Below, piece after piece: positions 23,188 to 35,900 of a stretch of 64,000 nucleotides of DNA. Position 1 is the first letter of the stretch. Each line of letters starts with the position of its first letter. The stretch covers positions 1 to 64,000 of the forward strand of contig DASUUK010000003.1 in the NCBI GenBank assembly GCA_036374135.1, in the 5' to 3' direction. Source of the stretch: Euzebyales bacterium. Lineage in GTDB: Bacteria; Actinomycetota; Nitriliruptoria; Euzebyales; JAHELV01. The position numbers were made by a program, and so were the translations under genes. Below the pieces are notes generated by a model. The model did not search any database. It had not been told where the DNA came from and saw nothing but the letters and a program-made list of their open reading frames with translations.

Positions 23188-23970
23188 ATGACCGACACCA
23201 CGCGCGACGGGCCACAGTGGCGCCACGGCTTCGACATCGACGGGCAGTCCGGCGGGCCGATCCGGCTCGCGCAGGTCGACCGCCGCTTCTTCGAGCTGCG
23301 CTCACGCATCGACTTCCGGGGTCACACCGGCCTGGAGGGTCGTGTGCCCGACGCGACCATCGCCAGGATCAGAACGCTCGATCCGCCAGAGCGGTTCCTG
23401 ACCGACCTCGGGTCCGTTCCCGGCCCGACGCGCTGGTTCCTCGGTAGCTACGGCGAGCACACGCCGGCCGTCATCATCCACGACTGGCTCATCCCGGTCT
23501 CCCGGACGTGCGGGCTGGACGGCATGACCGATCAGTACGCCGACCGGTACATGCGCTTCATGCTCGACGAGGTCGGCGTCCGCTGGCTCAAGCGGTGGAT
23601 CATGTGGGCGGCCGTGGCGCTGCGCACGCGCTACGCAGCCGGCGGACTGCGGCGGGTCTCGGTCGTGGCCTGGCTGGTCGCCGCACTGATCGGGCTGTCG
23701 ACGTTCCTGTACACGCTGCTGTTCGGCGAGATCGGCTGGGTCACCGTGGCCGCGGCGGTCGCGCCGGCGCTGTTCGCCGGCCTGTGGGGACGCCAGTACG
23801 GCGCGGGACTGATCGCCGGTCTCACGGTGCCGTGGCTGCTACCCCCGACCGTGCTCGCCGTCATCGGCTACGCGATCTACTGGGTGATCGAGAGCATCGC
23901 CGGTGTGGTGCTGGCCTGGCTCGGCCGTGCACCGCAAGACCCGGGCACCATGGCGGCGGAGGGCATGTGA
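23188..23970 (+). CDS. DUF1353 protein with C-terminal membrane spans
   Basis: 260 aa. Residues 1-150 are a DUF1353 domain: FLTDLGSVPGPTRWFLG, the core AVIIHDWLI with conserved His-Asp, and ADRYMRFMLDEVGV. DUF1353 is common in phage-related genes and resembles a peptidase-like fold. Residues 155-250 add about three to four hydrophobic spans (VVAWLVAALIGLSTFLYTL, and others), a layout seen in cellular rather than phage versions. No phage genes are nearby. Probably a membrane-tethered cytosolic domain; function unknown. Confidence 0.75.
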   Translation: MTDTTRDGPQWRHGFDIDGQSGGPIRLAQVDRRFFELRSRIDFRGHTGLEGRVPDATIARIRTLDPPERFLTDLGSVPGPTRWFLGSYGEHTPAVIIHDWLIPVSRTCGLDGMTDQYADRYMRFMLDEVGVRWLKRWIMWAAVALRTRYAAGGLRRVSVVAWLVAALIGLSTFLYTLLFGEIGWVTVAAAVAPALFAGLWGRQYGAGLIAGLTVPWLLPPTVLAVIGYAIYWVIESIAGVVLAWLGRAPQDPGTMAAEGM

Positions 23971-24334
23971 GGCACCGATCGGCCGGTCGTTCGCGACGAC
24001 CAGATCGCCGATGTCGGAGGCGATGTCGTCGGCGAGCCATCACCTCGCGTTGACGACGTCACGCCGACACGCCCCGTCGTGACGTCGTCGGAGAGCGGCG
24101 CTCGATCTCGTCGAACGGCACGGTGAGCCGCACGACCCGCAGCGGCACGTCCACCCAGCAGGGTCGGTTGTTCGGCTTACCTACCACGCACCAGGCGTCG
24201 TGTACGGCGTGGACATCCGCAGTCGGCGTGGCCGCGTTGTTCGGCGGCTCACCTGTCAGGTCACGACGTTCGTTGGCGGGCTTGCCTTTGTTGACGGCCC
24301 TGCGTGAGGATCTCCTCGAGGTCTGGAGGTCGCG
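23971..24334. other. Intergenic stretch, possible gene-end fragment
   Basis: 364 bp before the DUF1059-like gene. On the minus strand a frame ending at 24059 reads WVDVPLRVVRLTVPFDEIER, which looks like the end of a protein, but it has no matching upstream coding sequence. GC content falls towards 24300. No RNA gene or clear promoter was found. Confidence 0.35.
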
Positions 24335-24493
24335 ATGGCGCTGAGAATGACCTGCATGTGCGGGTATGTCATCGAGGGTGAGGACGACGACGAGTTCTGG
24401 AGGAATGCGCAGGGTCACATGGGTGTGTTGCACCCGGAGCTGGTCCGCAGCGTCACCCGCGAAGACATCCTCGCGCAGGCCGAGCAGCTCTAG
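24335..24493 (+). CDS. DUF1059-like small metal-binding protein, 52 aa
   Basis: ATG at 24335 with TGGAGG 7 nt upstream. The short protein has CMCGYVIEGEDDDEFWRNAQ, then GHMGVLHPELVRSVTREDIL. The CxC pair and the His...HPEL segment match the DUF1059 small-protein pattern, predicted to bind a metal. Its stop overlaps the stop of the SARP gene on the other strand by a few bases, so the two are convergent with no terminator space. It is too short to be found by usual length filters. Confidence 0.75.
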   Translation: MALRMTCMCGYVIEGEDDDEFWRNAQGHMGVLHPELVRSVTREDILAQAEQL

Positions 24494-25248
24494 TCGGCGG
24501 TGCGCAGCAGCCGTCTGTGAACGGTCTGCACGACGGGGCTGGGCGCGATTCCGAGCTCGTCTCGGAGCAGGACCCGTAGCCGCTCGTAGGCGCGGAGCGC
24601 CTCAGCGACGTTGCCGCGACGTTCCAGCGCTTCCATGAGCAGGCAGTGCCCACTTTCGCGGTAGGGCGCGAGTTCGGTCAGCATCCTGGCGCGTTCCTCT
24701 GCCTGCGCGAGCGCGGGGCCGCCGAGACCCAGGCTGGCGGCGGCGAAACACTCGAGCCCACGCAGTCGGACCTCTTCCAACCGGCGTCGCCATGCGTCGA
24801 TCCATGGCGCTTCGAGCCCCATGAGGAACGGCCTGGTGGCGACGTGGTAGGCGATTCCTGCCGGACCCCATGCCTGCGCCCATTGTCCTTCGGCGATGTA
24901 GGACTCCGCGCGGTGCGCGCCTTCCAGGGCTGCCTCGGCGTCGACGAAGGTCGCCGGCGGCAGCCGCAGCTCGATCTCTGCCCGTCCGTGGAGCCGGTCG
25001 GCGCCCAGGCTGCGGCGGAGCTTGGACAGCGCCACGTTCAGCGCGCTTGCCGCTTCGGCGGGATGGTCGTCGCCCCAGCCGGCCACGAGCAGCTCGTCGC
25101 GAGGCGATGGACGGCCCCGCTTCAGGGCCAGGTACGCGAACAGGATGCGCCCCTTGCGGCCGGGCAGGGCCTGTTCGACGCGGGAGCCGTCGATGTCGGC
25201 CACGTACCGCCCGCAGAGCTGGATCCTGGCCTTGGTCCACTCACCCAT
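24490..25248 (-). CDS. SARP-type transcriptional activator
   Basis: 252 aa. An N-terminal OmpR-like winged helix (QLCGRYVADIDGSRVEQALP, GRKGRILFAYLAL, DELLVAGWGDDHP, ALNVALSKLRRSLG) is followed from about residue 100 by the bacterial transcriptional activator (BTAD) helical repeats, with the signature ALERRGNVAEALRAYERLRV and LRDELGIAPSP near the end. SARPs activate secondary metabolism or local operons by binding direct repeats. There is no ATPase or TPR extension, so it is a minimal SARP. The likely target is not adjacent in the same direction; the SnoaL-like gene is divergent across 143 bp. Confidence 0.88.
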   Translation of the reverse strand: MGEWTKARIQLCGRYVADIDGSRVEQALPGRKGRILFAYLALKRGRPSPRDELLVAGWGDDHPAEAASALNVALSKLRRSLGADRLHGRAEIELRLPPATFVDAEAALEGAHRAESYIAEGQWAQAWGPAGIAYHVATRPFLMGLEAPWIDAWRRRLEEVRLRGLECFAAASLGLGGPALAQAEERARMLTELAPYRESGHCLLMEALERRGNVAEALRAYERLRVLLRDELGIAPSPVVQTVHRRLLRTAD

Positions 25249-25391
25249 CGGGGCCCCGGATCAACGGTCCTCGCCGTCCGTACGTGACAGCAAGCATACG
25301 GAAAGCTCGACGAAAGGCGCGGGAACGGTCCGCGCAATCAGCGGTCGCCACACTGCTCGTCCTCGACCGTCACGACCGCGGAGGAGAAGTC

Positions 25392-25823
25392 ATGAACGCG
25401 AGCAACGTCGAGACCCATCGCGCCGGCCACGACGCCTTCAACGATCGGAATTTCGCAGCCATGACCGCGCGCTACGCCGATACCATCGTCTGGACGGACC
25501 ACGCCCAGGGCCGAACGTTCACAACGCCCCGGGAGTTCAAGGACGACTTCCTCGCCGGATGGGTGCTGTCCTCCGGCGACATCCGCATCACCGACCCCCA
25601 CTACGTCGACGCTGGAGCGACGGTGCTGTGCACGTTCACCGTCGTCGGCACCCACGATGGCCAGTTGGGCCCGTTCCCCGCCACCGGTAAACAGTTCGCA
25701 CTGGCGCTGTGCGAGATGTGGCACTTCGACACCCAGGGGCACGTGGTTGGTGGGGACCTGTACTACGACCAGGTCTCGCTGCTCACCCAGCTGGGCCTGA
25801 TGCCGCAGCCGTCGGCAGCATAG
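25392..25823 (+). CDS. SnoaL/NTF2-like polyketide-cyclase-type protein
   Basis: 143 aa, GGAGAAG before the ATG at 25392. Starts VETHRAGHDAFNDRNFAAM, then RYADTIVWTDHAQGRTFTT and the C-terminal CEMWHFDTQGHVVGGDLYYD. This is the ester cyclase/SnoaL variant of the NTF2 fold. Relatives act on polyketide or steroid-like substrates, or bind small molecules. It is divergent from the SARP gene, and might be its target, but no polyketide synthase is in the window. Confidence 0.8.
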   Translation: MNASNVETHRAGHDAFNDRNFAAMTARYADTIVWTDHAQGRTFTTPREFKDDFLAGWVLSSGDIRITDPHYVDAGATVLCTFTVVGTHDGQLGPFPATGKQFALALCEMWHFDTQGHVVGGDLYYDQVSLLTQLGLMPQPSAA

Positions 25824-25941
25824 GCGGCGTCGCGAGCGGAGACGCGACACCGCGATGGATCACATGCGGGTGCTGTGCCGCGGATGCTGGACGCCGTGTC
25901 GCTCCCGGGACGACGTTGCGAGCGCACGGGATTTTCTGGTC

Positions 25942-26061
25942 ATGACTGCTGTCACTGCGCCGATTCGTGAGCCTGGCGTGCACCGACGCCGGGCGGTCGT
26001 CCTCAACGCCGACATCGCCTCCTATTGTCGGCTGATGGCAGACGACGAGGCGGCGACCGTT
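25942..26061 (+). pseudogene. Class III adenylate/guanylate cyclase stub
   Basis: Starts at an ATG at 25942. Residues 17-42 (HRRRAVVLNADIASYCRLMA, then DDEAATVARN) match the first strand and helix of class III nucleotide cyclase domains (RRLAVVLAADVAGYSRLM...), including the metal-binding Asp. The match ends at about 26061. The frame runs on without cyclase motifs, and no GDG motif is found in any frame before the START-domain gene at 26356. A truncated gene. Confidence 0.55.
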
Positions 26062-26355
26062 GCGCGGAACCGACGCGACCGACCAGGCCGTCACGTCCCA
26101 CCGGTCGGGGCCATCGCACACTTGTGTGATGGTGGCGCTCGAGCGCAGGACATGCTCGCGGCGTTTGAGCGTGCTTCGCGGTGCCCGACAATCGGGCTGG
26201 TCACCCGCCCGGATCATGTGCCGACGCACCGGCTGCCGTCCCTGCACGGCGGTGTGGACGATGTCCGTGTCGTGATGGACGCGGCCAAGAGCAGGCAGAC
26301 CGACAACTTCATGTCGGGGCGCCTCCGGTGCCAGCTGCGTACGGAAGGATCCTCG

Positions 26356-26817
26356 ATGGCCTCCCAGCCGGATGAACTGACCCTGCACCTGGAGAGCGTG
26401 GTGGACGCCCGGCCATCACGGGTGTTCGACGCGTTGACTGATGCCGACGAGGTGGCTCGGTGGTGGGGTCCTCACGGGTTCACGACCTCGGTTATCGAAC
26501 TCGATCTGAAGGTCGGCGGGAGGTACCGGTTCGCGATGCAACCTCCGGAAGGCGAGATGTTTCATCTCCACGGCGAGTTCCGCGAGATGCACGCCCCCTC
26601 TCAGCTCGTGTACACCTTCCGCTGGGAGCCGCCCGATCCGCAGGATGTCGAAACAGCGGTGAACATCTCGCTGACGGACCTCGGTGGATCGACCCGACTC
26701 ACCCTGGATCAGGGCGTGTTCGCCACCGAGGCGCGAACGGCACTTCACGAGCAAGGGTGGAGCGAAAGTCTTGAACGTCTGAGAACGTTCCTATCCTCGA
26801 ATGAAGCGCATGCATAA
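26356..26817 (+). CDS. SRPBCC/AHSA1 (START-like) domain protein
   Basis: 153 aa from the ATG at 26356, with GGAAGG 9 nt upstream; the much longer open frame upstream is the decayed cyclase and is not part of it. Typical AHSA1 motifs: VVDARPSRVFDALTDADEVA, RWWGPHGFTTSV, LDLKVGGRYRFAMQPPEGE, and the closing HEQGWSESLERLRTFL. This fold binds hydrophobic ligands and is often paired with an ArsR repressor, which is absent here. Cytosolic; ligand unknown. Confidence 0.85.
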   Translation: MASQPDELTLHLESVVDARPSRVFDALTDADEVARWWGPHGFTTSVIELDLKVGGRYRFAMQPPEGEMFHLHGEFREMHAPSQLVYTFRWEPPDPQDVETAVNISLTDLGGSTRLTLDQGVFATEARTALHEQGWSESLERLRTFLSSNEAHA

Positions 26818-26918
26818 CGAACTTCTTGACGCGGGACAGCACAAACCCTGCCCTCTGAACGGCCCCCATTGACACCAGCACCCGCACCAGGCATCCACAC
26901 CGAACACTGCCCAGCCGT

Positions 26919-27047
26919 TCAAGAGCATACCTTCAGGCCGTCGACGTAGTCGTCGGGCATCAGCCCGCGGTACGCCGCCTGCCAGGCGCGCACGACCAGC
27001 GCACCCATCGCCGCCGCGTCGCTGGGCCCCGCTGTACGCACGTGCAT
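26919..27047 (-). pseudogene. GNAT acetyltransferase stub, 42 codons
   Basis: From the ATG at 27045-27047 the protein reads HVRTAGPSDAAAMGALVVR, then AWQAAYRGLMPDDYVDGL and stops after KVCS. That is the N-terminal strand and helices of GNAT N-acetyltransferases; the acetyl-CoA-binding R-x-x-G-x-G/A part is absent. An upstream ATG at 27083 would add 12 residues. The neighbouring 26818-26918 holds nothing coding. Confidence 0.6.
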
Positions 27048-27273
27048 CTCGGATCCGCCGGTCACGTTGACGCCGGGCAACATAACCGAGATGCCCTCGC
27101 TTCGGAAGACTGAGGAGCGACTCGACGGGCTCCGAGCGGGCTCGTGCCAACCACATATCGGATGTCGATGGGACCGAACCGTAAGACCGCCTCCCGATTC
27201 CCGACCCCGACGGCCCGCTCAACCCTGGCCGCGCGTAGTGTCAGGGCCGGTAGAAGCGGCGGCCAGAGCAGCG

Positions 27274-27564
27274 TCAACCGAGCGCTGCGCACAAAGCCGA
27301 GAGGTCGCCCTCCAACTCCTGATGTGGACCGCTCACGACGATCACCTCGCCGGTCGACGCGTCAAAGACGACTCGGCCGGCGTCAATCAGCACAATCCCA
27401 GCACCCGGCGCGTTGAAATGGAACACCAATCCGAAGAAGCTCTCGGTCGTCGGCTCACCGTTCTCGAAGTCGATGACCACAGTCCAAGCATCGTGACCTG
27501 ATACCGATGCGCCGGTCTCCGGGTTGGTCGCCGTGCCGTCGTCGCTCAGATCCGCGATGAGCAT
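27274..27564 (-). pseudogene. C-terminal half of an actinobacterial secreted protein
   Basis: 96 codons from an ATG at 27562-27564; the frame is open further upstream. The sequence (NPETGASVSGHDAWTVVID, TESFFGLVFHFNAPGAGIVL, DAGRVVFDASTGEVIVVSGP, EGDLSALCAALG) matches the C-terminal half of a family of small exported proteins of unknown function, which begin with a signal peptide and a PPTTE-x-FxF-x-D segment. That N-terminal half lies head-to-head on the other strand at 27576-27806. Alone it has no export signal. Confidence 0.6.
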
Positions 27565-27575
27565 TCGCGTGTTAG

Positions 27576-27806
27576 TTCCTTGCCTCGGTCGTACTGGCGA
27601 TGATGGCTGTCGCTGTGCCGGCTACCGCTGTGCCACCGACGACGGAATCGTTTGAGTTCGTCGATGAGTTCGTCGACGAGGAATCCTGCAGCTTCCCTAT
27701 CGAGGTGACCTTTGTCGGGGGCGGGACCGAGCGAACCTTTTGCAGCGAAGACGGCACAGTTAAGAAGGTGATCGTTAACCTACCTCCATTGGCAATGCGC
27801 CGGTGA
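27576..27806 (+). pseudogene. N-terminal half of the same secreted protein, inverted
   Basis: A stop at 27573-27575 is followed by an open frame FLASVVLAMMAVAVPATAVP, the hydrophobic core and cleavage site of a signal peptide, then TTESFEFVDEFVDEESC, SFPIEVTFVGGGTERTFC and EDGTVKKVIVNLPPL, where homology ends. The first in-frame ATG is 27600, inside the signal core, so the natural start has been lost. Family members continue with the segment now found on the opposite strand at 27274-27564. Confidence 0.6.
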
Positions 27807-28226
27807 GCCCGCCAGCCGGAGGCCGTTCACGACTCACCCGACCACCCGCTCCGGAATGGCGTGAGCCCGAGCAGGGCGCGACTGCCGCGGCCGGCTTGGC
27901 ACGGCTGGAAGATCCGCTGTGTAAACCGGGTACTCGGCACGTAGCGGAGGTGTGGGCCAGCCCTCCGCATGATCAGGGGTCCGTCGAATCGGTAGCATTC
28001 CGGCGGCGGACTTGAAGGCGCATGACGAGAGGGGCAGAGCGCGTGGGCAGCAGAGATATCCATCGACGGATGGGGGCAGCGGACATTGTCGTCATGCTCC
28101 GGGACCTTCTCGAAGACGAATGTCACGACGCTCGCCCGCAGCCGACTCGATCCAGCACCCGCGACCTCCCTTGAGTTCGCGGTAGCAGAATGCGAGCGGC
28201 CGTCTACATCGCCTCGCCCTGCCCGA
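27807..28226. other. Non-coding interval in decayed region
   Basis: 420 bp. A 50-codon plus-strand frame at 28022-28174 (GSRDIHRRMGAADIVVMLRD) has a TAGCAT hexamer upstream but no ribosome site or known relatives. A long minus-strand frame lacks domain signals. No confident gene. Confidence 0.35.
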
Positions 28227-28805
28227 GTGAGAAGTCTCAGCCCTTCACAACGGACCGCGGTTTGCCATCGGGACGGCTTCATCGACCGGCTCAGTCCAGA
28301 ACGCTGACGGCTGGTCTACCCAGGAGCGATCCGCGTGCTGTCGCTTGAGCTGCCCGGCGCGATCGATGCCCACCCAGATGGACCCTGGGCGTACCGCGCA
28401 AACGCGCCGGTGTGGTGGGACCTGTGGCCAACGGTCGATCACCTGACCCCGCGGGCACGCTCGGGTACGAACGCCGAGGACAACCTCGCTTGCGTGTCCT
28501 GGTGGCGCAACGATACCAAAGGCGATCGAACACTTGCCGAGACCGGCTGGACGCTTCAAGCTCCCGGCTCGCCAGACGAGTGGGACGGCCTCCTCGAATG
28601 GTTCGTCGATCGCGTACGCCGCCGGCCGCATCTTGCTGAGGATGCAACGGTTCGCAGCTATGTCATAGCCGCGTCATCGGTCATCGCCGTCGATGTCGAC
28701 GTGAGCGGGGTCGCCATAGAATCCGCCGCCACGGTGGCTGCCTCGCCGCAGCCGGACCGTGACCGTCACGACAGGCCGACGATGCGCTGTCGAAAGTCGG
28801 TCTGA
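28227..28805 (+). pseudogene. HNH-endonuclease-type protein with in-frame TGA
   Basis: From a GTG at 28227 the frame reads RSLSPSQRTAVCHRDGFIDR, then LSPER, a TGA stop at 28305-28307, and in the same frame RLVYPGAIRVLSLELPG, then WWDLWPTVDHLTPRARSGTN (the HNH DH-x-P-x-x-x-GG-like core) and ETGWTLQAPGSPDEWDGLLE. Both sides of the stop match one family of stand-alone HNH proteins. Only the stop interrupts it. A restart at GTG 28335 would lack the first strand. The tail after residue 120 is unrelated low-complexity sequence. Confidence 0.65.
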
Positions 28806-29301
28806 GCGACGAACAGCCGGGGGGCCTACCACAGCCACCTGTCACAGACCGCGCCCAAGACTTGGCTGGCAAGCAGCGGGACCTGGCGGGTCATTCAACA
28901 TCCCAGCCGTCAACGCATCCTCGAGCGACTGGTCGACGGCAACTGGAGCATGTACGAGGAGGGCCACAGCTCCGACCGACTGCTCGCGCTCGCCGCCGAG
29001 ACAGACCGCCAAAACGGCATTCCGACTAGCGACCCACACCGGCGCTGCTGGCTCAACATCGAACCGTGACGCCATGCGAACGTCACAACCGCCGGCCACG
29101 GTACGGGGTTCCGGCATCCGGGACGCCGATATGACGGCCGAGCATGGACTGGACCCTACTCAACACTAATGGATTCCATCCAATTCCGCCCCACCTTGCC
29201 GGAAACGGGCGGCCAACGGCAGCCGGGAGACTCATTTCCGAGGGGTTGACGGAATAGGAACCTGCTACTGAATTGATCAGGCCTAGTGGATACAAGACCC
29301 G
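28806..29301. other. Interval with one start-less frame
   Basis: 496 bp. A plus-strand frame from the stop at 28803 to a TGA at 29067-29069 reads TWRVIQHPSRQRILERLVDG, then NWSMYEEGHSSDRLLALAAE, which looks coding, but it has no ATG, GTG or TTG near its start. It may be the tail of a gene whose beginning is lost. The rest, towards 29301, is AT-richer and empty. Confidence 0.4.
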
Positions 29302-30120
29302 TCAAGTTAGGTTGTCGCCAACGGGTCGATCGGAGTGTCCTTCCGCACAGCTGTGGAGCTGCGCGTCGCCCAAGTCAAAGCTAGATCTCGGCATCCATCC
29401 TTGAGCAATTCTGATCCAGGACGCTGATCGATTGTGATCCTCGTAAGAACAAATGGCGGTAAGGCTGCCCCCAACAGTGATATCTTCGGCACGTTGTGAA
29501 GTGACTAAGCGTAAATCGCGGATCGGTCGTCGATAAGTGTGCGCCGCACTTACTACCTCCAATCGCGGAAAGGTGGTGGTCCACTCGTCAGCTTTTTGGT
29601 CGAACAGGACCTCGGATATTCTTGGCCCCGCTGTTCCATGCTGGGCCTTCACATCCCAGAATGCGATCTCTACCTTGACATCGGTACCGTCGCGAAACTG
29701 CTTGTCGCGAGCATCTTTCATGTAGTGCTTCACTTCAACCTTGTACGTATTGCGATCCTCGGCTGAGGCGAATGATAATATCTCGGCCCAAGCCGACTGC
29801 TGCCAGCCAGGGTCGGCGCGCATATTGTTGTACTGGTCGACGGCGTCTCCTACGAGCATTGCGGAGGCGCGATCAGTTCGTCCCACGGCAGCCCGTTCAA
29901 AGAACCGGTGAACAAGTTCGCGGGCCTCATCATCGTCGAGATTCTTGTACTCAGAAGCGCACACGATGGGAACTGCCTGCCACTGACAGACGTTCTCTCG
30001 GACCTCGTTGTCTCGGGCGGCCCAAGCAAGCACAGCAATTACGGCAGCAGCGATGACGGCGGGCACACTGCGTCCCGACCGCCTGCCGTAGCTGTACGCC
30101 TCAGACTGCACATTGCTCAC
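29302..30120 (-). CDS. Membrane-anchored protein with NTF2-like and SH3-like regions, foreign composition
   Basis: 272 aa from a GTG at 30118-30120, with GGAGGG 6 nt upstream; the ORF extends further but without ribosome sites. A short cytosolic start is followed by one membrane span (SVPAVIAAAVIAVLAWAA, about residues 19-37). An outside domain then begins LDDDEARELVHRFFERAAVG, typical of NTF2-like stress-sensor domains, and the C-terminal 70 residues (VGGSLTAICSYED, WIRIAQGWMPRSSFDL) resemble a bacterial SH3. Base composition is unlike its neighbours (28 of 60 G/C in 29401-29460), a sign of transfer. Function unknown. Confidence 0.7.
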   Translation of the reverse strand: MSNVQSEAYSYGRRSGRSVPAVIAAAVIAVLAWAARDNEVRENVCQWQAVPIVCASEYKNLDDDEARELVHRFFERAAVGRTDRASAMLVGDAVDQYNNMRADPGWQQSAWAEILSFASAEDRNTYKVEVKHYMKDARDKQFRDGTDVKVEIAFWDVKAQHGTAGPRISEVLFDQKADEWTTTFPRLEVVSAAHTYRRPIRDLRLVTSQRAEDITVGGSLTAICSYEDHNRSASWIRIAQGWMPRSSFDLGDAQLHSCAEGHSDRPVGDNLT

Positions 30121-30561
30121 CGCGGTCCCTCCGCACAGGTGACTAACTGGCAACCCTAGACAACAACGGACAACACCAAATGTCACGAGAACGATTTCTG
30201 AACTCTCGGCCGCTGTTGCATCACCGCCAACCAGCGCGAGCCGGGACGGCACGCTGTCAATCTCGTGTCCTTGACAGGGCCGAGAGTGATCGTCCAACGA
30301 CATGCTCGAACGAGACCGATGTGTGCGTTTCCGGCCGAACATCCCCCCGCACAGCTCAGCTCGACCTCGGAGAGGCTTCGGCACCCGGTAGGGTGCAATC
30401 CGTCCGCGACTGGTTGTCGGACAGCGCGGACGGGTTCGATGCGGGTGGTTCGACGCCCCGACGCCCCGGACCGGCGCACCACTTGGGCTCCGCGCGATCC
30501 GCCGGACGGTGGCGACAGCGCTGTCCGCCGACGCCACGTCGGCGGGTCGAGTACAACTCAC
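30121..30561. other. Intergenic stretch, no gene seen
   Basis: 441 bp between the divergent membrane-protein and DUF1028 genes. Open frames here are short or lack ribosome sites and domain signals. A GTACAACT sequence just before 30562 could serve as a weak -10. Confidence 0.4.
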
Positions 30562-31509
30562 GTGACAGGTCAAGGTCGAGGATGGAAGGACGGCCCGATC
30601 ACCTACTCGATCGTGGCGCGCTGCGCCGAGACCGGGCGACTGGGCGTCGCGATCGCGAGCCAGGCGCTGGCCGTCGGCCGCCTCGCGGCGTTCGCCGATG
30701 CAGGAGTCGGCGCGGTCGTCACCCAGAGCGTCGTGCTGATGGCGCACGGACCGCGCGTGCTCGACGGGCTGCGCGACGGCATGGGCGCCGCGGAGGCGGT
30801 CGCCGCGTCGCTCGACGCCGATGAAGGGTCAGCGCTGCGACAGCTCGCCGCGGTCGACACCCACGGGACGGTGGCGGCGTTCACGGGTGACCGGTGCATG
30901 GGGCACGCGGGGCACGTGACGGGAGACGGCTGGTCCGCGCAGGCGAACCTCGCGTCCGACCCCGGGGTGTGGGCGGCGATGGGCGCGGCCTACCGGGATC
31001 ACAGCGGTCCGCTCGAGCAGCGGCTTCTCGCAGCCCTCGACGCGGCCGAGGCCGCCGGCGGTGATCTGCGCGGGCGGCAGTCAGCGGCGCTGCGCGTCGT
31101 CGCGCCGGCGCCGACTGGTGACCTGCTCACCGACGTCGTCATCGATGTGCGGGTCGACGATCACCCGGAGCCGTTGCGTGAGCTGCGCCGCCTGGTCGGC
31201 CTGGCCGTCGGGTTCCATCGGCTCGAAGTCGCCGAGCAGGCACTCGGCAGGGGCGAGGAGGACGAGGCGGTGCGTCTCGGTGGCGCCGTGGTCGTAGCGC
31301 ACCCCGACGAGGTCCCGTACCGGTCAGCCTTCGCCATGCTGCTGATCGCGACCGGCCAGATCGACCGGGCACGCGAGGAACTGGCACAGGCGACCACCGC
31401 AAGCGGGGACGACCGGTGGCGCCTGCTGCTCCGGCGTGCCGCCGACGCCGGGCTCATCGACGACGACGCCGTCGCCGCCGTCCTGCGAGACCGGACCCCG
31501 ACGGACTGA
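30562..31509 (+). CDS. DUF1028 Ntn-hydrolase-like protein
   Basis: 315 aa if the GTG at 30562 is used. Family members begin near ITYSIVAR, 13 codons later, where only an ATC follows a GGAAGGA ribosome site, so the start is uncertain. The DUF1028 core is clear: TYSIVARCAETGRLGVAIAS, ADAGVGAVVTQSVV, and AALRVVAPAP. The fold resembles Ntn hydrolases and the family is thought to be a heterotypic amidohydrolase or lactonase, unproven. A C-terminal helical repeat (about residues 215-310) is TPR-like. Soluble. Confidence 0.82.
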   Translation: MTGQGRGWKDGPITYSIVARCAETGRLGVAIASQALAVGRLAAFADAGVGAVVTQSVVLMAHGPRVLDGLRDGMGAAEAVAASLDADEGSALRQLAAVDTHGTVAAFTGDRCMGHAGHVTGDGWSAQANLASDPGVWAAMGAAYRDHSGPLEQRLLAALDAAEAAGGDLRGRQSAALRVVAPAPTGDLLTDVVIDVRVDDHPEPLRELRRLVGLAVGFHRLEVAEQALGRGEEDEAVRLGGAVVVAHPDEVPYRSAFAMLLIATGQIDRAREELAQATTASGDDRWRLLLRRAADAGLIDDDAVAAVLRDRTPTD

Positions 31510-31898
31510 TCCGATCCGTCCCCCGACCACAGATCGCCGCCAGTTGCTGGACGAGCACGTCCGGCCGGAGCGACGTTGAGGCTCGCCTCGCAACGACGTT
31601 CGCAATTGCATCGTTGGTGCTGACTGATCTGACTGGAAGTGTTTATTTCACCACGGTGTACAACATCGTCAGCCGAGATGGAACCGACGGCGAGCAACTC
31701 ACGGACTTCTCGAAGCAGATTCGCAATCTCATCTGTCATGGGTCCGACGGGTGTGAGAAATCCGACTCGCCTCATGCACGGTACCCCGCCGGTCCTGCGC
31801 CACGGACGCGATTCTCGAACGACGAAATGGGGCGACCGAGCAATCGTCGCCCGAAGTGACGCGTGCGAGCGGGTGCCTTCGAATCGCAACGGAGGTGT
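31510..31898. other. Intergenic stretch, weak small frame only
   Basis: 389 bp. A minus-strand frame starting near 31739 (MTDEIANLLREVRELLAVGS, then ISADDVVHR) has a SHOCT-like look but no ribosome site, and it runs into non-coding-looking sequence. Local composition is AT-rich around 31600-31700. No confident gene. Confidence 0.35.
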
Positions 31899-32612
31899 TC
31901 AGCCCGTCGTGCGCCGGTGTTCGAGCCCGTCCAGTATCAGATCGAGACCGAACTCGAACTCGATCTGGTCATCACACCACCCCAACGAGCTGTCGCCCTC
32001 GTCGTGCGCGACCTCCGAGAGCATCGCCAGCAGGTGGGGAAACTGGTCCGCGTGCTCCTCGAGCAGGGCGGCGGTCTCCGCGCCCGCGGCCTCGGGATCG
32101 TCGGGCTCGAAGAGCTCCTGGGTGAACCCGAGCGCGCGACTTCCCAATGCGTGCAGTGCGTGATGTGCGACGTCATATGAGAAACCACCGGATTTCAGGA
32201 TGCCGAGCACGCCATCGAAGTAGCGCACCATCGCCGGGATCGTCTTCGTGCGCGTCTCGAGCACCCGGGGCGCCCACCTGTGCCGGAGCAGCACCTGCCG
32301 GGCGGTGAGGACGCGCACGCGCAGCGCCGTCTGCCAGTCGTCCCCCGGTTCCGGTCCGTCCGCCTGCTCCACCGCAGCGAGGATCTCGTCGAGTACGACG
32401 TCGACCACGCCGTCCAGGATCGCCTCCTTGTTGGGCACGTGGTGGTACAGCGACATCGCTTCGACCCCGAGCTGCCGGGCGAGCCCGCGCATCGTGAGCG
32501 CGTCGAGGCCGCTTTCATCGGCCAACTCGACGGCCGCGCGAAGCACGCGCTCACGGCTCAGCGGGACGCGGGCAACCTCGGTCGACACGTCGACAGCACT
32601 GTCAGATGCCAT
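31899..32612 (-). CDS. TetR-family regulator with TetR-type C-terminal domain
   Basis: 237 aa from the ATG at 32610-32612, GAGAGGTG upstream. The HTH is SRERVLRAAVELADESGLDA, then TMRGLARQLGVEAMSLYHHV and NKEAILDGVVDVV. That VEAMSLYHHVPNKEAIL variant and the C-terminal FGLDLILDGLE place it with the tetracycline-repressor-type (TetR_C) group. Such proteins repress a neighbouring exporter or enzyme; no obvious target is adjacent. TACATAGTA at about 32641-32649 near its promoter could be part of an operator. Confidence 0.87.
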   Translation of the reverse strand: MASDSAVDVSTEVARVPLSRERVLRAAVELADESGLDALTMRGLARQLGVEAMSLYHHVPNKEAILDGVVDVVLDEILAAVEQADGPEPGDDWQTALRVRVLTARQVLLRHRWAPRVLETRTKTIPAMVRYFDGVLGILKSGGFSYDVAHHALHALGSRALGFTQELFEPDDPEAAGAETAALLEEHADQFPHLLAMLSEVAHDEGDSSLGWCDDQIEFEFGLDLILDGLEHRRTTG

Positions 32613-33214
32613 GGACACCTCTCGTCGGGCCATCCTACCCGTACATAGTAAGTCTGAGCGCGTCGACATCATACGCGCCTGCGCCACGCGAGGCGGTACC
32701 GGTTGTGATCGGCTCGCAAACTGGACACCGCCGCGCCTGGAAGATTGAAATCCTCACCGCCACATGGATCGGCGATCATGTCGCACGGACGGGCCAGAAG
32801 GGTTGACATTTCTTTGTCCGGCGGAGCCGGTCCTCCAGTCGTTCGTGGAATAGCCCCATGCAGTTTCGCAACGCAGGAACAAGCCACCACAAGACGCTGA
32901 AGCACGGCGTGGCGATCACAGACAGACATGGCGAGGTCGATCACAGCGACGCTATTGTGTCAACAGTGTTTGTGATGCTCAGGCGTTGACAGCGATGGCG
33001 GGAAGCTGAGATGGCACCGAAGGTGCACTATGTTTGGCACCATTGACAAGGCCGTCAGACGGTAGCGCCGGAGACCGCGACGTCGCGGAGTGGACGCTCG
33101 GTGAGGGTCGGACCGGCCGGCTCATGCCGGGCATTGGACAGATCGCCACCCGTCGGCGACCATGGGTGACGCGAGTGTGACAGCCAAGTGCGGTCGCAGA
33201 ACGTGAGGTCGCCG
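32613..33214. other. Large intergenic interval
   Basis: 602 bp between divergent tetR and exported-protein genes. Contains the AT-rich patch 32940-33060 and a TTGACA at 33043-33048 without a matching -10. No open frame with a ribosome site or domain signal and no RNA gene were recognised. It marks the right edge of the gene-poor stretch. Confidence 0.4.
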
Positions 33215-33727
33215 GTGACAGCGAAGGGTACGGCCGGGCCACTGAGGCGCATCGTCGTCTCGGGGTTGGCCGCGCTCAGCATGCTCCTGCTCGCGGCACC
33301 CGGCGCCGCCGCCGACATCGTGCTCACGCTGTCGGTCGACCGCGAGGCGCGGATCACCGCACTCGACGCGGCGGGCGCGGGAGTGACCGATGGCACCTTC
33401 TCACTCGCAGATGCCGACGAGGTGCGGGCACACGGCGCGGTGCACGACGAGTTCGTGTCGGTCGACGATGAGCTCGGACCCAAGATCGTGCGCGCTGTCG
33501 AGACCTACACCCTCGATGACGGCAGCTCGTTCACGATCCGGTCGGTCGGCCGACGGACGTCCAGCGACGGGGCGACGCTGACGCTGTCGACGACCGTGGT
33601 GCTCATGGACGGCACCGGCGCCTACGCCGGGTTGACCGCCCAGGGCGTCGGCACCACGGTCGTGGATCTGACCAGCCGGACGGTCCACAGCCGCTACGAC
33701 CTCGACATGCGCGCTGACGCCGCGTAG
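33215..33727 (+). CDS. Exported hypothetical protein, 170 aa
   Basis: GTG at 33215, chosen because GAGG lies 7-8 nt before it; a GTG at 33188 lacks a site. Signal peptide: GPLRRIVVSGLAALSMLLLA, cleavage near GAAAD. The mature part is beta-rich and acidic (ADIVLTLSVDREARITALDA, DGSSFTIRSVGRRT, DGTGAYAGLTAQGVGTTVV). The last motif resembles dirigent/allene-oxide-cyclase-like barrels, in which GTGAYAGLxGxG recurs, but that assignment is weak. Secreted; function unknown. Confidence 0.65.
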   Translation: MTAKGTAGPLRRIVVSGLAALSMLLLAAPGAAADIVLTLSVDREARITALDAAGAGVTDGTFSLADADEVRAHGAVHDEFVSVDDELGPKIVRAVETYTLDDGSSFTIRSVGRRTSSDGATLTLSTTVVLMDGTGAYAGLTAQGVGTTVVDLTSRTVHSRYDLDMRADAA

Positions 33728-33760
33728 CTCCGGTCCACCGACGGGCGGGAACCTACCGTC

Positions 33761-34357
33761 ATGTGCCGGCGTCGAAGCGGCATGGGTGTGATGGGCGCGG
33801 CGTCGCGAGGCACCGGACTTCCACTGGCGCTGGTCTGTGTCACCCTGTCCGCATGCGGTGCAGCCGCGACGCCCTCCTCCACGAGTGATTCATCTGCCGC
33901 GCCGTCACGTCCGGTCCCCGGTGTCGTGCGTTCCGAGCCCCCGACCGCGGCACCGTCCGAGCCCGATGAAACGGTCTCCCAGCAGCCGCCGCCGCTGGTC
34001 ATCGCATCGGACGCCGGAGTGGCCACGTACGACGCCTACACCTACTGCTGGAGCGCCGAAGGCGTCGGCGTGTGCGCCGACGGTGTGCCCACGCTCGACG
34101 TCCGCGCGCGAATCGCGGGCGCGACGACCCTCGAGTTCCCGGTCGACGGATGGACGCTGACGGCGAGCCGACGGCTCGACCGCGACGGAACCGACACAGC
34201 GCCCGTGGCGCTGCGTCAGCGCGACGACACCGTCTGGCTGATCGCCGACCCGCTGCCCGCCGGTCCTCACGTGATCGAGGTGTCCGGTCGCGGGCCCGAG
34301 GGTGATGCCTTCTGGGCCATCCCGGTCGACGTCGTGATCGCCGACGGCGCATCCTGA
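33761..34357 (+). CDS. Lipoprotein, 198 aa
   Basis: The ATG at 33761 or the in-frame ATG at 33782 both give a signal peptide ending in the lipobox LSAC (Cys32 from the first). A Ser/Pro/Thr linker to about residue 75 leads to a compact beta-type domain: DAYTYCWSAEGVGVCADGVP with a likely disulfide, LEFPVDGWTLTAS, and GPHVIEVSGRGPEGDAFWAI. The shape suggests an Ig-like extracellular domain. Its role is unknown. Confidence 0.7.
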   Translation: MCRRRSGMGVMGAASRGTGLPLALVCVTLSACGAAATPSSTSDSSAAPSRPVPGVVRSEPPTAAPSEPDETVSQQPPPLVIASDAGVATYDAYTYCWSAEGVGVCADGVPTLDVRARIAGATTLEFPVDGWTLTASRRLDRDGTDTAPVALRQRDDTVWLIADPLPAGPHVIEVSGRGPEGDAFWAIPVDVVIADGAS

Positions 34358-34409
34358 TCCGCGACGCGCGGTACGGTCCCGACCGGACACCCACGATCGG
34401 AGCTCTTCG

Positions 34410-35900
34410 ATGGCTGCCAACGGTGACGGCGGACAGCTGCGGATCTCGGTGTCGCTGTCCGGTGGGGCAAGCCTGGGCGCCTATCACGCCGGGGTGCTCG
34501 CAGCGCTCACGACAGCCGTCCAGGCGCTGCCTGACGACGAGCTGCGTCTGGACGCGATCGGTGGCGCGTCCGCCGGCGCGCTGGCATCGATGTTCGCCGC
34601 GCACGGTCTGCTCAACGGGCTCGACACCGCCGAGCTGCTCTACCAGGCATGGGTCGAGCAGGTGTCGCTCGAGATGTTGCGCGGCCGCGGATCGGACGCG
34701 CCCCTCGGGTTCCGCCAACTGCGGGAGCTGCTGCCGGGGGAGCTCGACGTCGACCGTTGGTCCCGGTCGCCGCACGGACCGCAGGACACACCGATCGGCC
34801 TGCATGTCTCGCTCACCGGCCTGCGCGGACTGCGGTTCGATCTCGAGACCGTTGACGGGCGCGTGATGCCGGCGATGACCTACGCCGACTGGGGCGAGTT
34901 CGTGCTGCAGCCCCGTGGCGGCGTCGAGCAGCTCCTCACCCCCGAGGGCGCGTCCGTGCTGGACTTCGTGCTGGCGTCCGCGGCGAATCCCGCCGGCTTC
35001 GGACCCGAACTGCTCGACCGCACGTACGACCGTGACGCGTTCGCGTCACGGCGGATCGAAGACCTTCCCGGCGACGGACGGCTCTGGTACACCGACGGCA
35101 GCAGCATCTCCTCCGAACCGATCGGCCGCGTGCTGTCGCTGCTCGACCGCGTCGACGACGGCGCGCGCGACGCCCGCAGGATCCAACTGATGGTCGACCC
35201 ACTGTCGGAGATCCCGAAGGACTCGAACGCCTGGACCGCCGACGCCGACCGTCCGACGTGGCTCGAGTCGCTCTCGCGGACGCTGGAGATCATGCCCGAG
35301 CAGGTCCTCCACGACGACCTGCGACGTGTGCAGCACGTCAACAACCGCTTCCAACGACTCGACGACCTGGTCGACACGTTGGCACCCCACCTCGGCGAGG
35401 GCGCGGTTGCGGCGCTCCATGACGTGTTCGACGACGACGCGCTGCCGGAGCGCGACGCCGACGCAGCGACGGCCCTGCGTGAGGTCGTCAGCCGCGTGGC
35501 TGGCCTGCACGGCAAGAGCCCGGTGCACCTGGACTTCGTGTCCCCGCTGCTGGTGGCCGACCGCCACGATCGCGACGTCCCGGGGCTGCTGGCGGGCGAG
35601 CTCATGAGCGACTTCGGCGGGTTCGCCGACCGCCGACTGCGGCGCAGCGACTTCGCGCTGGGCTACGAGTGCGTGCTGGCGTGGCTTCCCGAAGGACTGT
35701 CGCGCGTCGACGCCGCCGACGACGTCATCGCGACAGCGATCGACGCCGCCGAACGCCACCAGCGCCACCGCTGGGCCGACGTCGAGATGGGCCACGCCGG
35801 GATGTCGGACCTGCCCCGCAGCAGCCGCCTGCAACTGCTCCGCCTCGGCGTGCAGACGCTGCGTGTCATCGCCCACGACGTGTGGCGGATGATCCGCTGA
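34410..35900 (+). CDS. Patatin-like phospholipase/acyl hydrolase
   Basis: 496 aa. Oxyanion-hole glycines in LSGGASLGAYHAGVLAAL near residue 18, nucleophile Ser in GGASAGALASM near 54, and the Asp of the dyad in WYTDGSS near 229. The long remaining part is helical and characteristic of a large actinobacterial patatin group. It releases fatty acids from lipids; no signal peptide or span, so it is cytosolic or peripheral. A TACGGT hexamer occurs about 40 nt before the ATG at 34410; GGAG precedes the ATG. Confidence 0.83.
   Translation: MAANGDGGQLRISVSLSGGASLGAYHAGVLAALTTAVQALPDDELRLDAIGGASAGALASMFAAHGLLNGLDTAELLYQAWVEQVSLEMLRGRGSDAPLGFRQLRELLPGELDVDRWSRSPHGPQDTPIGLHVSLTGLRGLRFDLETVDGRVMPAMTYADWGEFVLQPRGGVEQLLTPEGASVLDFVLASAANPAGFGPELLDRTYDRDAFASRRIEDLPGDGRLWYTDGSSISSEPIGRVLSLLDRVDDGARDARRIQLMVDPLSEIPKDSNAWTADADRPTWLESLSRTLEIMPEQVLHDDLRRVQHVNNRFQRLDDLVDTLAPHLGEGAVAALHDVFDDDALPERDADAATALREVVSRVAGLHGKSPVHLDFVSPLLVADRHDRDVPGLLAGELMSDFGGFADRRLRRSDFALGYECVLAWLPEGLSRVDAADDVIATAIDAAERHQRHRWADVEMGHAGMSDLPRSSRLQLLRLGVQTLRVIAHDVWRMIR

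Follow-up and report, generated by a model that had tools for sequence, protein, structure and literature searches.

Do the two short open frames that lie head to head on opposite strands between 27274 and 27806 of the window (the whole 64,000-nucleotide stretch of Euzebyales DNA analysed here) derive from one gene and, if they do, was that gene broken once or does part of it turn back and forth as a switch? The first-pass annotation had described the frames as the two halves of a secreted-protein gene split by an in-place inversion, and both are present in that arrangement (Table 1). The plus-strand frame, here called the N-half, opens with FLASVVLAMMAVAVPATAVPPTTESFEF and closes with VIVNLPPLAMRR at its stop; its full reading is FLASVVLAMMAVAVPATAVPPTTESFEFVDEFVDEESCSFPIEVTFVGGGTERTFCSEDGTVKKVIVNLPPLAMRR, and its coding part is 27576-27803. 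An in-frame TAG (27573-27575) stands immediately 5' of it and its sole start codon, the ATG at 27600, falls inside the hydrophobic signal core; thus the N-half frame is without its natural start. The C-half, read on the minus strand from 27564 to 27274, encodes MLIADLSDDGTATNPETG...LCAALG in a frame that is open upstream to at least 27600.

Table 1. Window positions of the features of the split gene
Feature	Position	Strand	Description
N-terminal half	27576..27806	+	putative turned segment; signal core to VIVNLPP, startless
C-terminal half	27274..27579	-	ATG at 27564, with the open frame continuing upstream of it
Candidate original start and n-region	27802..27837	-	GTG AGT CGT GAA CGG..., MSRERPPAGGLT; in frame with the C-terminal half
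NTRMLIADLSDDG stretch before TATN	27535..27576	-	most of the join surplus, or a counterpart of VKKVIVN (N-terminal half) on the same family strand

Relatives were sought first with the two halves joined into one query; a later version, joined without surplus residues, was used for searching only, not as evidence for the join. Among 396 genomes of the phylum, tblastn with the joined query matched unbroken single ORFs in G255 (E = 1.4e-8, query residues 7-157) and G381 (E = 2.7e-8, residues 28-170), together with a weaker match to an intact paralogue in the window's own genome (E = 4.5e-4). A profile search yielded members in eight further genomes; the profile that called them in included the joined window query, and the G255, G381 and paralogue matches had been found earlier with the joined sequence itself. 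On an independent profile of length 166, built from 11 aligned relatives with the window gene left out, the N-half matches positions 8-73 (48 bits) and the C-half positions 67-165 (37 bits), against at most 11 bits across 2000 shuffles per half. Taken alone, the N-half is 34% identical to the G255 ORF (E = 1.6e-8), and the C-half is closest to the G381 ORF (31% over 96 ungapped residues, E = 1.5e-7), both E-values being computed for a nominal 3-million-residue database. As judged from these alignments, one secreted-protein family accounts for both halves, which complement each other as the first-pass annotation had held; the halves do not belong to different families.

Every relative that we collected is a single ORF, so that none repeats the split arrangement. 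Family members are secreted proteins of about 150-195 residues (mean 172) that carry the signal and the whole body in one ORF, whereas the window copy is spread over two strands and has lost its start; it is a broken family member, not a working one. The motifs that its halves have in common with G255, G381 and the paralogue are those of the family: a signal core, PP..E..F...FVD...C.FP, DG.V, TN..TG, G....PG.G......GR.V and a closing C-A-L. The paralogue (L024, G000:C1:3742-4251, minus strand) is near the G255 protein, and the motif HPIREINPFS is common to those two. All tested members fall below the cut-off of every Pfam model; neither Pfam, NCBIfam nor solved structures supplied a name, and no solved relative was found. 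Matches to DUF6196 and to TATA-box-binding proteins were weak, far under the cut-offs, and were rejected. This is a widespread but unnamed family of actinobacterial type, with members of about 170 residues.

A GTG at 27837 on the minus strand had been predicted as the original start, and we found it in frame with the C-half, with no stop between it and the right breakpoint. No other in-frame start occurs in the interval from about 27801 to the next stop upstream, at 27975, and a GGAG lies 11 nt upstream of the GTG (by eye). If the middle were flipped back, this GTG would supply the missing start; the evidence is permissive, as many pairs of breakpoints (left about 27574-27598, right about 27775-27805) restore an open frame of 187 codons. 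The earlier expectation that the halves would join in order holds only approximately. An exact flip gives a protein of 187 residues whose join is about 9-17 residues too long relative to the relatives, the number varying with breakpoint placement, and this protein scores 76.4 bits in two domains; when 17 surplus residues are left out, the resulting 170 residues score 84.9 bits in one domain. With its excess length and surplus join, the protein that a flip would restore falls short of a clean member of the family.

The join itself carries a further complication. Its flanks, VKKVIVNLPP and TRMLIADLSDD, both fit one and the same family strand and do so better than most random flanks (the real flank is equalled by about 5% of these on the C side, by 0.5-2% on the N side), and the halves overlap at profile positions 67-73. 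This overlap hints at a second event or at two paralogues, with a C-side signal, from the NTRMLIADLSDDG stretch, of only about 3 bits, a gain that about 5% of random flanks equal. Because the surplus residues lie where both halves weakly match one strand, a second event, an insertion particular to a subfamily, or remnants of two paralogues are each possible. A search of the window turned up no template for the surplus 40-50 nt.

We consider it probable that the gene was killed by a one-time inversion of about 200-230 bp within one gene copy, possibly accompanied by a small insertion. An in-place inversion is the simplest cause, as first proposed, given complementary halves that score far above shuffles and single-ORF relatives that cover both in order. 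It is also favoured because the start of the N-half is missing exactly where the C-half begins, with an in-frame minus-strand GTG beyond the right breakpoint; because no second family gene was found at this locus; because the surplus-free join makes one domain of nearly the mean length of the relatives; and because the neighbourhood contains other debris, namely a truncated GNAT fragment and a gene-poor stretch within a variable region. Counting against it are the excess length and lower score of the exact flip, the match of both join flanks to one family strand, which is impossible from one standard gene, the permissive nature of the start codon test, and the failure to find a close intact homologue.

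Under the inversion, the original gene would have run on the minus strand from about 27837 to 27274 and encoded a small secreted protein. One breakpoint would lie just past the start and n-region (right, about 27775-27805) and the other roughly half-way along the gene, so that the start and C-half would have been kept on the minus strand while the signal core and N-half were turned to the plus strand. The mechanism would be repeat-free, either end joining or template switching, and the join surplus suggests that a small insertion accompanied or preceded the inversion. The outcome would be two fragments without function, left in a part of the variable region that is decaying. We infer, then, that a single gene copy gave rise to both halves, that one repeat-free event separated them and that the gene is dead.

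The surroundings show where this took place. A region from the 5'-3' exonuclease gene (ending near 23.2 kb) to a patatin-like gene, 23196-34426, is variable: the interval lengths found among congeners G001, G002 and G003 are only about 2.1, 4.1 and 4.5 kb, and the DNA there has no significant match to the window. Conserved DNA resumes at about 34.4 kb in two congeners and 36.0 kb in one. The gene thus sits in a region whose content differs among the congeners. Long tblastx lists for the congener interval were disregarded as chains of chance pieces. Between 26.8 and 30.3 kb, coding-signal selection chose no ORF; about 3.4 kb of the surroundings are without a convincing gene, and the GC content, 0.705 over the window, stays mostly at 0.61-0.68 between 26.75 and 29.25 kb.

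At lower window coordinates, the DNA of a fragment at 26929-27093 shows 93% identity to the beginning of an acetyltransferase-like ORF that is intact in congener G003 (L047:1095-1700). It is a truncated, GNAT-like front on the minus strand, to which 27137-27182 also belongs; the GNAT label was given by eye, with no Pfam hit. Most aligned DNA between the window genome and G003 is 75-80% identical, against 93% for this fragment, which by its identity may have been transferred recently and then truncated. On the other side, an open frame at 28335-28805 has weak similarity to HNH endonucleases (E = 0.004-0.007, below the Pfam cut-off) and is possibly another gene remnant. GC falls to 0.53 around 29250-29750 (within 29250-30750), and a 481-residue minus-strand ORF at 29302-30747 matched no Pfam family.

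We looked widely for an intact close copy of the gene. The window's own genome holds the distant paralogue and no close intact copy; the congeners lack the gene at this locus. Only distant members were found in the class, and two further classes gave no closer one; viral contigs and plasmids yielded no intact close copy. A scan of a genome collection with peptide patterns and a motif pattern also returned nothing, a weak silence, as such scans catch close relatives only.

The main rival to a single inversion derives the halves from two separate paralogues, or from a tandem pair that rearranged in a more complex way; each copy would have been truncated, and a deletion or inversion between them would have left the remains head to head. 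We regard this as a possible but distinctly less favoured history. It would explain why the same family strand apparently occurs in both halves, and it agrees with the best relatives being different for the two and with the genome carrying at least one other family member. Against this, it calls for several events and leaves a near-perfect complementarity to coincidence, no other remnant of the family lies nearby, and on the C side (the NTRMLIADLSDD stretch) the overlap amounts to about 3 bits.

An assembly error, with an intact gene on the real chromosome, seems improbable. Such an error is conceivable in a draft genome of 115 contigs (96% complete, 2.6% contamination); however, the segment ends share no repeat of more than 6 nt between the strands, so that the assembler had no obvious path to a turned segment, an exact flip yields no clean family member, and neighbouring genes are broken too.

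The first-pass annotation had offered a one-off lesion and a phase-variable switch as alternatives, of which the lesion is favoured and the switch is not supported. A segment that flips back and forth, turning the secreted protein on and off, would fit the intragenic geometry and the open frame with a start that a flip restores. The inverted repeats and invertase that such a switch called for were looked for: the longest exact match between the segment ends is 6 nt, which is also the mode for 2000 random window pairs, a repeat scan gave nothing at the segment ends, and about 45 window ORFs, scanned with Pfam, included no recombinase (the survey covered the window, and one acting from elsewhere in the genome is possible). 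By comparison, invertons carry inverted repeats of 10-40 nt (PMC11892184). As a flip also does not restore the normal family length and the surroundings are decayed, we consider a phase-variable switch very unlikely, and an intragenic switch needing neither recognisable inverted repeats nor a neighbouring recombinase exceedingly so. No Rfam family was found within the window.

It is scarcely credible that the fragments are expressed as separate working small proteins: both frames are open and an AAGGAA lies about 11 nt upstream of the minus-strand ATG at 27564 (by eye), but the N-half ORF would begin inside its own signal core, the C-half has no signal, the arrangement is absent from all relatives collected, and no promoter-like site was found for the fragments, the last being weak evidence.

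Intragenic invertons and gene-altering programmed inversions (Chanin et al. 2024 and Milman et al. 2023, both as cited in PMC11892184) resemble this locus in having an invertible-looking intragenic segment whose flip alters the encoded protein; the window segment differs from them in lacking end repeats of 10-40 nt and in having no recombinase found among the surveyed window ORFs. A second comparison class is that of pseudogenes made by small inversions without repeats, with which the locus has in common halves on opposite strands, one lost start, no inverted repeats and a decayed neighbourhood; unlike a clean simple inversion, it has surplus residues at its join. We read the locus as ordinary gene decay; it leaves the view of phase variation unchanged. 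It offers a small and fairly clear instance of gene breakage through a short repeat-free rearrangement, and such lesions escape ordinary annotation because each half resembles a separate small ORF. The secreted family to which it belongs, which has no Pfam model, may deserve a name.
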